A stretch of 34,811 nucleotides of DNA from Acidimicrobiales bacterium (GTDB lineage Bacteria; Actinomycetota; Acidimicrobiia; Acidimicrobiales; VFJN01). The position numbers and the translations under genes were made by a program. The stretch is from positions 1-34,811 of the forward strand of contig DATHJB010000067.1 of NCBI GenBank assembly GCA_035316325.1. Direction: 5' to 3'. Below, piece after piece: positions 11,273 to 14,707 of this stretch; the stretch's first letter is position 1; each line of letters opens with the position of its first letter. Under the pieces are notes generated by a model. The model did no database searches. It was not told the origin of the DNA and saw only the letters and a list, made by a program, of their open reading frames with translations.

Positions 11273-11614
11273 CTAGGACGATTGGAGCCAGTCGGACATG
11301 GCCGTGGTCTCGTTCTCGGCCAGCTCGATCAGCTTGAACGCCGGGCCGTAGAGCACCCGCAGCTTCTGGACGCGGGAGGCGTCGTCGGGCTCGGCGTCGC
11401 CGACGGCGACCACGTGGAAGTCGATGCCGTCGCCGTTCCGGGTGCGGGTGACCTCGAACTGGATCTCCAGCTCGACCTCCCGCAGCTCGAGCACCGGGTC
11501 TTCCGCCCGGTCGATGCGGCTGGCGTCGGCCTTCTCCAGTTCGGTGCGGACGGCGGAGATCAGTTCGGCGAGGCCGATGCTCGCTTCCGATCGGGGTTCG
11601 TCGGTCATGGCCAT
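11273..11614 (-). CDS. Trypsin-co-occurring domain 2 (trypco2) protein
   Basis: A 113-residue single-domain protein. IGLAELISAVRTELEKA followed by LELREVELEIQFEVTRTRNGDGIDFHVVAVGD and QKLRVLYGP matches the trypco2 pattern: an N-terminal IGLA-x-x-I helix, then an amphipathic strand pair. This domain was described, in work on predicted NTP-dependent conflict systems, next to trypsin-like proteases and MoxR/vWA or NACHT proteins. Here no protease or NTPase is adjacent, so it is an orphan copy. The start is either ATG 11614 or ATG 11608. The upstream chaplin-like gene on the same strand is separated by a strong hairpin, so it probably has its own promoter. Confidence 0.7.
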   Translation of the reverse strand: MAMTDEPRSEASIGLAELISAVRTELEKADASRIDRAEDPVLELREVELEIQFEVTRTRNGDGIDFHVVAVGDAEPDDASRVQKLRVLYGPAFKLIELAENETTAMSDWLQSS

Positions 11615-11714: not shown

Positions 11715-12431
11715 TCAGCCGGGGCAGGCGCCCGTGGCGTCCTTCACGACGCCCACGGCGATGCCGCACACCGTTATCGGGCCGTCGGATGTGACAGACA
11801 GGACGGAGTCCTGGCCGCTTGGGGCGGCGGCGGGGTGGTTGGTGGGATTCAGCGTCCCGACCCCGGGAACGTCCAGGCCGAGGGCGGGACCGGCGGGCGC
11901 CGCGGGCCCCTCGGGGCAGGCACCGACCGCGTCGCCGAGCAGAGCGACGGCGAGGCCGCAGACGGTGATCGGACCTGCAGCATCGGCTGCGACCAGGTCG
12001 TCGGCGGCCGCCACGCCAGCGGTCGCAGCGGTCGCCGTGTCGGACGTCGTCGCCAGGTCGTCGCGTTCCTCGGCCGCCGTCTGGAGAGCGTCGGCCAGGT
12101 CGTCATGGCCGGCGGTGCGCAGGGCGGCGACGAGGTCGGCGAGGGCCTCCGCCGACCGGTCGGCCGACGCGTCGGCGGTGGTTGCTGCGGTTGCGCCATG
12201 GGCACCTCCACTCGGGGCCGCCGCCGGACATGCAGCGGTGGCATCGCCGAGCAGCGAGATGCCGATACCGCACACGAGCACGGGCAGGTCCAGGTCGAGG
12301 TCGAGGGGCAGCGGCCCCTCGGCAGGCGCCGCGGGTGCGGCGGGTGCGGCCTGGGCGCCGCTGACGCAGGTGAGCAGGAGCCCGGCCGTGACGCTGGCGG
12401 TCACGGCGAGCTTGGCTACGAGGTTGTTCAT
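11715..12431 (-). CDS. Secreted protein with three chaplin-like cysteine repeats
   Basis: A 238-residue exported protein. The signal peptide is MNNLVAKLAVTASVTAGLLL up to AQA at 26-28. The mature part holds three copies of one motif: VLVCGIGISLLGDATAACP (51-69), ITVCGLAVALLGDAVGACP (155-173) and ITVCGIAVGVVKDATGACP (219-237). Each has two Cys exactly 14 apart, a Val/Ile/Leu core and a Gly/Lys-Asp-Ala turn. The 80-residue spacer between repeats 1 and 2 is Ala-rich and helical. The motif resembles streptomycete chaplins (VCGNxxxxxGLLNPxxGNxC), which are longer between the Cys and assemble into surface amyloid; I infer kinship or convergence only. GGGAGAG Shine-Dalgarno at 12436-12442, 4 nt before ATG 12431. 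It lies 52 bp behind the next gene, probably as an operon. Confidence 0.7.
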   Translation of the reverse strand: MNNLVAKLAVTASVTAGLLLTCVSGAQAAPAAPAAPAEGPLPLDLDLDLPVLVCGIGISLLGDATAACPAAAPSGGAHGATAATTADASADRSAEALADLVAALRTAGHDDLADALQTAAEERDDLATTSDTATAATAGVAAADDLVAADAAGPITVCGLAVALLGDAVGACPEGPAAPAGPALGLDVPGVGTLNPTNHPAAAPSGQDSVLSVTSDGPITVCGIAVGVVKDATGACPG

Positions 12432-12483
12432 CGATCTCTCCCGGTAGGTCGTCGTCTGGCTGGTGGGTCAGGCGGACGACGGG

Positions 12484-13278
12484 TTAGTCCGGGGTCGTGG
12501 GTGGGCGGCTGGCCGGGCGGTCCTCCGGCGCTTCGACGGCAGCGCCGAGTTGCGCTGCCGTCGAGGCCGCGACGAGCGCGGCTCGAGCGCCGGGGGTGCC
12601 TGTGACTTGTGGCCCGCGATCGGTGCGCGGCCCGGGGCCGCAGGGGACCGCGTCGGCCGAGCCCGACGGCGGCCGGTGCGGGGACGGCGTCGGCGTCGGC
12701 TCGCTGCGGTCCGCCCGGAGCGTGGGGGCGGCGTGACGGGTGGTCACCCCAGCGGCGGGCGTGGACGCAGGACCGGGTGGCAGGGGAGCCACCGGATCGA
12801 GCGCCCACGCCCGCTCGTCGTGCCGCCCGGGTCCTGCAGCAGCCTGCACGACCGGTGGACGCCGTGGGGCACGACGCGCCGCGACCGTCCGCACAAGGGG
12901 ACGGGCGGCGGGAACGGACGGGGGTTCGGGTGCGATCGCCGGAGCCGTCGGGACCGGGGCGGGAGCTTCCGGCTCGAACACCGGCGGGAGGAGGGTCTGG
13001 AGTGGCTCGACGACCGGATCGACGATCGGCGTCAGCACGTCGTCGACGAGCTCGGTGGTGGCGGGGACGAGCTGCAGCACGTCGTCGACGACGTCGGCGA
13101 GCCCGGCCGGTCGGGTGGTCGCAGGTTCCGTGGGCTCGTCGGCCGCTGTCGGCTCCGCCAGCCAGAACCAGACCGCGACCGCCACCGCTGCGGCGACGAG
13201 GAGCCGGGTCGACCGCCACAACGACGACGCCGGAAGCGCCGCCGCCCTGACGGTGCACTCACGGTCCTCATGCCGCAT
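12484..13278 (-). CDS. Membrane-anchored or secreted Pro/Val-rich protein
   Basis: A 264-residue protein I do not recognise. It has a charged N-terminus of about 25 residues, then one hydrophobic segment LLVAAAVAVAVWFWLA (26-41) that is either a signal anchor or a signal peptide, with possible cleavage near PTAA-DEP. Next is a short amphipathic region repeating Val-Asp-Asp-Val-Leu units (ADVVDDVLQLV at 61-71, ELVDDVLTPIVDPVVEPL at 76-93). From about 100 to the end it is Pro/Ala/Thr/Arg-rich and probably disordered, as in a wall-spanning stalk. Codon use is normal. I chose ATG 13278 because a GATATT -10 box lies 7 nt upstream; a longer frame would start at 13338. It precedes the three-repeat secreted protein and is likely its partner. 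Confidence 0.65.
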   Translation of the reverse strand: MRHEDRECTVRAAALPASSLWRSTRLLVAAAVAVAVWFWLAEPTAADEPTEPATTRPAGLADVVDDVLQLVPATTELVDDVLTPIVDPVVEPLQTLLPPVFEPEAPAPVPTAPAIAPEPPSVPAARPLVRTVAARRAPRRPPVVQAAAGPGRHDERAWALDPVAPLPPGPASTPAAGVTTRHAAPTLRADRSEPTPTPSPHRPPSGSADAVPCGPGPRTDRGPQVTGTPGARAALVAASTAAQLGAAVEAPEDRPASRPPTTPD

Positions 13279-13285
13279 GGCCGCC

Positions 13286-13291
13286 AATATC
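13286..13291 (-). promoter_or_regulatory. -10 box GATATT of the surface-protein pair (leaderless)
   Basis: On the minus strand GATATT ends 7 nt before ATG 13278. It departs from TANNNT at the first base only. Confidence 0.45.
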
Positions 13292-13345
13292 GGCCCGCTG
13301 GGAACCCCTGTCAACCCGTTGAGTGGCGAAATTCCCACGTTTAGT

Positions 13346-13386
13346 GGTAGGGGCGTCGGGGGACTGACGGACCCCTCGGCGCTACC
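13346..13386. terminator. Imperfect hairpin at the end of the acyltransferase gene
   Basis: GGTAG (13346-13350) pairs with CTACC (13382-13386), and further in CGTCGGGGG faces CCCCTCGGCG with mismatches and a bulge. The outer arm includes the minus-strand stop codon at 13382-13384. Confidence 0.4.
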
Positions 13387-14707
13387 CGCTGCGGGACAAC
13401 ACGGGCGACGCAGCGCTGCTGCTCGACTCCCGGGGCAACGCCGTATCGGTCTTCGACGTCCTCCCCGCCCACTTCATCAGCGGGCGTTCGAGGACGTAGA
13501 AGCTGGCCGCACCGAACGCCAGCGCCACGGCGGCCCGCGCGCCCATGGCCACTGCCGACGACGTGGGGGAGCCCTCGTGCCACGGGCCCGGCAGGTCGGC
13601 CAGCACGTCGAGGTGCCACAGGTAGATGCCGTAGCTCACCACGCCGACCGTCACCAGCGGCCGCCACGACAGCAGCCGCGGCACGAGCCCGACGGTCGCG
13701 CCGCCGAGCACCACGGGCGTCACCAGCAGCGCGGCCGCCAGCAGCTTGAGGGCGTGGCGGACGAGCATGTCGCCGGGCTCGTAGTCGAAGCCCTGCTGAA
13801 GGTACGACAGCACCACCAACGTGGCGCACGCCCCGATCCAGCACAGCTCGGTGGTGGGGACGCGGGCCGGTCGGCGCCGTTGCAGCCAGGCGGGGCGGCC
13901 GTCGACGGTGACGACGGCGAGCAGCATCCCCCAGCCGAGGCCGACGAGGTGCGGAGGCAGCACGGCGAAGGGCACGGGCAGCGGATTCTCTGCGGCGATC
14001 ACCGCGGCGGCGGTGCCGGCGGCGAGCAGTACGGCGACACCGGCCAGCTCCTGCCGGCGCCCGTCGAGGCCGCCCGCCCGGGCCAGGCGCCGCATCGCCC
14101 ACGCCCACGCCGGCACGAACGCGTAGAACGACACCTCCACCACCAGCGTCCACGACTGCCCCAGGCCCGCGGGGAGGAACAGGGACGCGTCGTCGCGGGG
14201 GAAGTAGCCCTGTGTGAGCGTGAGGTGCTGCACGAGCTGGGCGGTGTCGTCGAAGTGGATCCAGCCGAACAGCAGCAGCCCGCCGACGGCCACCAGGTAG
14301 GCGGGGTAGATGCGCACGGCGCGGCGCAGCAGGTAGCCGCGCAGGCGGGGCGGCGGTCGGCCGCGCACGTGGGCCCGGGCGAAGGGGCCGTAGATCAGGT
14401 AGCCCGACAGCACGAAGAAGACCTCGACGGCGGCGTCGAGGTGCTGCGCCAGCGGGTAGGCGACGTGCCAGGTCGCGGGCAGCAGGAAGACGCCGTGGTA
14501 CACGACGATGCCGAGCACGGCCAGCGCCCGCAGCCCGTCCAGCCCGACCGCGCGCGTCCCCGTGTCGACCGCCGCCACTGCCGGCAGCCGCACCTCGACG
14601 GCCGCGAGCCGCGGCAGGTCCGCCGTGATGGTCTCGTTCCCCAGCGCTCCTGCCCCCCCACGTCCCCACCAGAGACCGCGCGGTAACATCGTACCCCGCC
14701 AGGGCAT
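13382..14707 (-). CDS. Acyltransferase 3 family membrane protein (OafA/YrhL-like)
   Basis: An integral membrane O-acyltransferase of up to 441 residues that would acetylate or acylate an envelope glycan or lipid. The domain opens with LDGLRALAVLGIVVYHG at about 55-71; the conserved His follows in VYHG. FFVLSGYLIYGPFARA and LRRAVRIYPAYL are the usual next motifs, and YLWHLDVLADLP with a YVLERPLMKW end closes the domain. About ten hydrophobic segments are visible. The last 25 residues are Ser-rich. The start is uncertain: ATG 14707 opens the frame, but a minus-strand TACGAT -10 box at 14687-14692 lies inside it, so translation may begin at GTG 14593. It neighbours the two surface-protein genes on the same strand, which suggests an envelope role. 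Confidence 0.85.
   Translation of the reverse strand: MPWRGTMLPRGLWWGRGGAGALGNETITADLPRLAAVEVRLPAVAAVDTGTRAVGLDGLRALAVLGIVVYHGVFLLPATWHVAYPLAQHLDAAVEVFFVLSGYLIYGPFARAHVRGRPPPRLRGYLLRRAVRIYPAYLVAVGGLLLFGWIHFDDTAQLVQHLTLTQGYFPRDDASLFLPAGLGQSWTLVVEVSFYAFVPAWAWAMRRLARAGGLDGRRQELAGVAVLLAAGTAAAVIAAENPLPVPFAVLPPHLVGLGWGMLLAVVTVDGRPAWLQRRRPARVPTTELCWIGACATLVVLSYLQQGFDYEPGDMLVRHALKLLAAALLVTPVVLGGATVGLVPRLLSWRPLVTVGVVSYGIYLWHLDVLADLPGPWHEGSPTSSAVAMGARAAVALAFGAASFYVLERPLMKWAGRTSKTDTALPRESSSSAASPVLSRSG

Follow-up and report, generated by a model that had tools for sequence, protein, structure and literature searches.

A putative two-gene surface-coat module with a short-loop chaplin relative and a structured RNA junction in an Acidimicrobiales bacterium

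The adjacent genes P0002 and P0001 lie in a window of 34,811 nucleotides of Acidimicrobiales DNA. They are best explained as a surface-coat module of two genes whose RNA junction would couple the translation of a coat protein (P0001) to that of its partner (P0002), a reading considered moderately probable. The repeats of P0001, the homology chain leading from it to the chaplins, the conservation of the gene pair and a complementarity at the junction specific to each locus were shown by computation. The conserved C-terminal PD tail of the partner and the RNA junction are features beyond those of the preliminary description of this region. The coordinates are collected in Table 1.

Table 1. Positions in the window of P0001, P0002, their junction and the flanking elements.
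Feature	Position	Strand	Basis
P0001, secreted 238-aa protein, three short-loop chaplin-like units	11715..12431	minus	sequence and homologs
P0001 signal peptide, residues 1-28, MNNLVAKLAVTASVTAGLLLTCVSGAQA	12348..12431	minus	sequence
P0001 unit 1, residues 50-69, Cys54-Cys68	12225..12284	minus	motif count
P0001 unit 2, residues 154-173, Cys158-Cys172	11913..11972	minus	motif count
P0001 unit 3, residues 218-237, Cys222-Cys236	11721..11780	minus	motif count
Structured RNA junction, stem with enclosed hairpin	12432..12507	minus	fold z -3.5, 0/200 shuffles as stable
Closing stem CCCGG/CCGGG, 5 bp, reaching the P0001 Shine-Dalgarno	12489-12493 : 12440-12444	minus	predicted fold
Inner hairpin CGUCGUC/GACGACG, 7 bp	12475-12481 : 12450-12456	minus	predicted fold
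P0001 Shine-Dalgarno GGGAGAG	12436..12442	minus	sequence
P0002, secreted Val/Pro-rich partner, 264 aa, C-terminus ...SRPPTTPD	12484..13278	minus	sequence and loci compared
P0002 putative signal peptide, residues 1-46, cleavage near PTAA-DE	13141..13278	minus	inferred from sequence
P0002 VDDVL..VDPVVEP segment, residues 60-96, predicted helical, moderate confidence	12991..13101	minus	AlphaFold2 H60-96, block pLDDT 57-77
P0002 conserved tail RPPTTPD, codons contributing to the 5' arm of the RNA stem	12487..12507	minus	loci compared and fold
Promoter-like site TTGACA-17-GATATT	13286..13314	minus	1 found, 0.1 expected
Acyltransferase gene, Acyl_transf_3	13382-14707	minus	Pfam

P0001 and its relation to the chaplins

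The secreted 238-residue protein with cysteine pairs 14 residues apart was found as previously described, and its secretion signal was evident by inspection (..LLLTCVSGAQA-APA). The pattern VCG-x7-DA-xx-AC occurs three times (VCGIGISLLGDATAAC, VCGLAVALLGDAVGAC and VCGIAVGVVKDATGAC) with a constant Cys spacing of 14; the three units stood as first proposed, and the stretch between VCG and DA, given earlier as 7 to 8 residues, was always 7 long. At least three such Cys pairs arose by chance in 18 of 200,000 shuffles of mature P0001. The units were hydrophobic (GRAVY 0.8 to 1.3), kept the PVxVCG...C core, had linkers of 89 and 49 residues between them and contained no GN motifs. A C-terminal sorting signal was sought in P0001 and none was found, the chain stopping right after unit 3 (...ATGACPG). 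The AlphaFold2 model of the chaplin-like unit reached a pLDDT of 58, with no secondary structure assigned.

P0001 itself gave no match to PF03777 at the curated cut-off in the Pfam scan, and a Streptomyces chaplin profile reached it at E 0.044, no better than shuffles; both results count against the module reading. Scans of P0001 and P0002 with Pfam and NCBIfam gave nothing convincing. The preliminary description had asked whether the repeats were confined to a single protein, and homologs were present elsewhere. The best one among 99 related genomes (1.6e-6) was a 602-aa protein of genome G008; it has a C-terminal LARTG and ten units, every one of them 14-spaced, and matched the Pfam family ChpA-C (PF03777) at 8e-14. 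Further relatives turned up when named genomes were scanned, in Blastococcus, Modestobacter, Geodermatophilus, Aquihabitans, an Acidimicrobiia MAG and Nocardiopsis, and 14-spaced relatives from Aquihabitans (1e-34), Modestobacter (5e-5) and Nocardiopsis (2e-9 and 1e-6) scored above the PF03777 cut-off. A profile of Geodermatophilaceae units found P0001 at 4e-19 and one of Nocardiopsis units at 4e-9, and the Nocardiopsis units were joined to Streptomyces chaplin units by profile alignment at 97.7% probability. Judged by descent from the chaplin domain through intermediates, P0001 belongs to the family on this profile chain; judged by two Cys about 18 apart together with GN motifs, it does not. 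The earlier placement outside the known chaplin groups was abandoned, since close homologs pass the Pfam chaplin cut-off.

The Cys spacing was 14 in 61 of 61 units from Acidimicrobiia, Geodermatophilaceae and Nocardiopsis, a constancy that is partly ascertainment because many of these units were retrieved with 14-spaced queries, and 18 in 36 of 37 units from Streptomyces, a genus assigned to the Streptomyces-type genomes from their chaplin sets. A chaplin-like repeat with shorter Cys spacing, as originally suggested, was supported. The four-residue loop deletion of the 14-spaced units takes out the NPAFGN segment. Further PF03777 domains were found in the genome of the window on contigs C70, C238 and C212. 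By inspection those on C70 and C238 were 18-spaced; the C212 protein (3.7e-9) combined an LPVTG C-terminus with the 14-residue spacing of P0001. Sorting signals of the LAxTG/LPxTG type are carried by relatives of P0001 and by the C212 protein, and this genome gave four sortase matches.

Additionally, the Nocardiopsis locus reads peptidase, partner, chaplin-type gene, and the peptidase is 70-73% identical to one flanking a Streptomyces chaplin pair; from its sequence motifs and general knowledge we take it to be an M20 peptidase. On account of the profile chain, the 14-spaced homologs matching PF03777 and this shared neighbourhood, P0001 is treated as an unanchored relative of the chaplins whose loop is shorter by four residues, and not as a canonical chaplin.

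In the family of genome G348, presumably the Microbacteriaceae, PF03777 was found in 44 of 199 genomes, about one in five (L143-L182), mostly in Cys-free, multi-unit, sortase-anchored proteins. On this count, chaplin-type proteins are commoner outside Streptomyces than an older survey suggests (PMC4255298).

The partner gene and its neighbourhood

P0002 begins with a hydrophobic N-terminus followed by PTAADE and contains 21% Pro after the N-terminal segment; VDDVL occurs in it twice (VVDDVLQLV and LVDDVLTPIV), in agreement with the Pro-rich partner with VDDVL repeats described at first. The membrane anchor ascribed to it was dropped, as an [AVSG]xA site just behind the hydrophobic core was present in 50 of the 51 partners with a recognisable core, which favours a cleaved signal peptide. 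P0002 is probably secreted rather than anchored. Most partners were 240-470 aa long. Pfam gave no match for P0002 or nine other partners, no rodlin family model being matched, and NCBIfam gave none for P0002 or two others. P0002 is predicted to be largely disordered; the low confidence of the AlphaFold2 models of unit and partner counts against the module reading.

Genes of the compared loci were called with a simple purpose-written script. P0002 ends 52 nt before P0001, and its RPPTTPD terminus resembles the RPAVTPD of the Val/Pro-rich proteins that precede the chaplin genes on contigs C70 and C238 of the same genome. At 17 further loci from several actinobacterial lineages, the chaplin-type gene was likewise directly preceded by a frame ending in PD, with gaps of 80-167 nt except at L050, where the start codon is uncertain. 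The prediction was tested in the G348 family, and a partner was present upstream at 40 of the 40 fetched loci, with gaps of 57-169 nt and tails ending in PD (38) or PG (2). Over the compared set, 40 loci of which were out-of-sample, the partner lay directly upstream of the chaplin-type gene in 60 of 60, so that the co-occurrence to be checked according to the preliminary description was found. A PD C-terminus was seen in none of 423 other called genes. The PG tails occurred only at L163 and L173, in one genus.

Nevertheless, the partner was absent at C212, at four Nocardiopsis short-chaplin loci and at the Streptomyces chaplin loci examined; a search for it in Streptomyces gave weak partial matches only, and a profile built from 12 partner sequences did not recover the partners on C70 and C238. 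The absences and the profile result count against the module reading, and because of the latter the homology of the partners rests on position, architecture and tail. No partner gene of such kind was found in the open-licence literature searched.

Each of the loci on C70 (L010:1-2241) and C238 (L011:1-2343) held a partner followed by two chaplin-type genes, the second extending, at the end of the contig, into a Pro-rich tail. In genome G012 (L098:3619-5358), a gene for a sigma factor of the ECF type (Sigma70_r2 at 2.5e-10, plus a hydrophobic segment and a weak match to zf-HC2) took the place of the partner directly upstream of a 14-spaced chaplin-like gene. The C-terminal part of its product is Val/Asp/Pro-rich and resembles the partner, and the gene may encode a sigma/anti-sigma fusion controlling a coat gene.

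On the minus strand of the window, the genes follow one another in the direction of transcription as acyltransferase gene, P0002 and P0001. The acyltransferase, included in the module at first, was excluded from it, since no counterpart was found among the called genes of the other loci and a promoter-like site intervenes. This site separates the pair from the acyltransferase gene and ends 7 nt before the P0002 start codon, so the P0002 transcript is possibly leaderless. Just downstream of P0001 a Trypsin-co-occurring domain 2 protein is encoded (PF19631, 4.5e-12; 11276-11614, minus strand), and farther away a protein with HAMP and adenylate/guanylate cyclase domains (PF00672, PF00211; 31459-33636, minus strand).

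The RNA junction between the two genes

The codons of the partner tail are complementary to the Shine-Dalgarno (SD) region of the chaplin gene. Raw duplex energy was discarded as evidence because ordinary neighbouring gene pairs reach similar values (on average -18 kcal/mol), and the comparison of own with swapped tail-SD pairs was used as the only discriminating test. Over 49 non-redundant loci the pairing energy was -19.9 kcal/mol for own and -14.6 for swapped pairs; an energy as low as that of the own pairs occurred in 0 of 5000 permutations. The difference was thus 5.3 kcal/mol, and in 159 ordinary gene pairs it amounted to 0.07 kcal/mol. The same test gave 0 of 20,000 within the G348 family alone, and 0 of 20,000 again when only the final 8 codons were used. 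The 14 nt behind the stop did not by themselves pair in a locus-specific way.

In full folds, at least 6 expected tail-SD pairs were formed in 53 of 60 junctions, and the junctions folded with a mean z of -3.8 (z <= -2 in 55 of 60). In the Geodermatophilaceae consensus a closing stem surrounds two hairpins; compensatory changes affect 7 pairs, all of them in the inner hairpins, and the closing stem is invariant. RNAalifold gave no structure for the G348-family alignment, probably because junction lengths are too variable to align, and no Rfam family reached the gathering score for the junction. Seven loci without tail-SD pairing, among them C70, C238 and three from Nocardiopsis, count against the module reading, as do the short closing stem of the window and the rank of the P0001 SD, which comes 7th among 60 when paired with the tail of P0002. 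Owing to this rank the junction evidence from the window alone is moderate. A conserved structure that would hide the downstream ribosome-binding site and overlaps the upstream stop was found for the family, and in weaker form for the window.

The codons of the tail were themselves constrained. The Pro at position -2 was encoded by CCC or CCT at 40 of 40 G348-family loci, despite CCG being common elsewhere in these gene ends, and the stop codon was TGA in 39 of the 40 partners. This codon bias and the SD complementarity weakened the view of the PD tail as purely a protein motif. The tail still reads PD at the seven loci that lack the pairing, a hint that selection may act on the terminus of the protein as well.

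Proposed function and comparison with known systems

In the mechanism proposed here, P0002 would be made first, possibly from a leaderless transcript, and its last codons would pair with the P0001 ribosome-binding site, hiding the start signal. Ribosomes finishing P0002 would then open the stem and free the P0001 SD (translational coupling by RNA unfolding), and an aggregation-prone coat protein would be made only together with its partner. Once both proteins had been exported, the P0001 units, disulfide-bonded or not, would probably build a hydrophobic film on the cell or at an interface, perhaps with the anchored chaplin-type protein of C212, and P0002 would probably help the coat protein to nucleate, to attach or to remain in solution. 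The coupling, the role of the partner, co-assembly and the formation of a film or amyloid are what we infer, and amyloid need not follow from three small paired-Cys units. There is precedent among the chaplins, where robust aerial growth requires long as well as short forms and the Cys residues are important in vivo (PMC3079736).

An unlikely alternative, although one with some weight, is that P0001, small, secreted and disulfide-bonded, works as an adhesin or in association with the wall, holding the chaplin unit by descent and forming neither amyloid nor a hydrophobic film. The loss of the NPAFGN segment through the loop deletion, the missing GN motifs, the linkers between the units and the low pLDDT of the unit model would all fit such a protein; the hydrophobicity of the units, the retained PVxVCG...C core and the presence of the 14-spaced unit in sortase-anchored chaplin-like relatives would not. 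Furthermore, abundant and strong extracellular functional amyloid was reported for Geodermatophilus obscurus, a species from a genus with the 14-spaced form (PMC3035280), which also argues against this alternative.

The pair and the coat protein could also be real with the PD tail only a consequence of the RNA stem; in that case the partner would have no role in assembly and might be a translated leader controlling the chaplin gene. We regard this as rather improbable. The choice of CCC or CCT for the Pro codon and the local complementarity of the tail codons to the SD are what it would predict, and the rest of the partner evolves fast, is of low complexity and belongs to no Pfam or NCBIfam family. 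Nevertheless, PD is kept at the loci without pairing and also in 11 cases of an unpaired CCC codon for the Pro, and the partners are long for a leader and have conserved signal peptides. That the junction RNA serves as a processing or protein-binding site, for instance in autoregulation by the partner or by an RNA-binding protein, and not in coupling, seems quite unlikely: the two inner hairpins with compensatory changes would suit it, whereas coupling needs the closing stem only, but it is precisely between the last codons and the SD region that the locus-specific complementarity lies, as expected for coupling by RNA unfolding (PMC12548453).

The two-gene coat module with coupled translation may hold more widely. 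It is conceivable, and put forward tentatively, that chaplin-type coats outside Streptomyces are generally two-gene systems in several lineages, that the PD partner is required for assembly and that the RNA junction couples translation. Chaplins have been studied almost only in Streptomyces; if the proposal is true, the partner and the RNA control would give direct access to the means by which bacteria keep amyloid from assembling too early, and they would supply candidate genes for the amyloid of G. obscurus, for which no gene is named in the accessible part of the report (PMC3035280).

Among known systems, the chaplins ChpA-H of Streptomyces coelicolor (PF03777, formerly DUF320) share with P0001 a secreted hydrophobic unit, the PVxVCG core and a Cys pair, and the likeness extends to long multi-unit P0001 relatives with LAxTG-type sorting signals, to Pfam matches and to the M20-peptidase neighbourhood. 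They differ in a Cys spacing of 18 instead of 14 and in the NPAFGN loop and GN motifs that P0001 does not have, whereas P0001 carries three units in one unanchored chain; the partner gene and the RNA junction were not seen at the Streptomyces chaplin loci examined. In TapA-TasA and CsgB-CsgA an amyloid coat protein is encoded beside an accessory secreted protein. The analogy of P0001/P0002 with these pairs is one of gene arrangement only, the partner here having a presumed role. The rodlins RdlA/RdlB resemble the partner as secreted proteins that shape the assembled chaplin layer (PMC5314377); unlike them, the partner matches no family, is Val/Pro-rich and mostly disordered in prediction, and its gene immediately precedes one chaplin-type gene. 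Outside Streptomyces, CwpA/CwpB of Actinoplanes missouriensis are hydrophobic surface proteins that depend on sortase and have been compared with long chaplins; in the accessible part of that report they are described as lacking chaplin domains, and a partner gene is not mentioned there (PMC13251363). Spaced coupling by RNA unfolding has been discussed for E. coli rpmI-rplT at +52 nt (PMC12548453). The genes are different and coupling in P0002-P0001 is a prediction, but the spacing of 52 nt is common to both.
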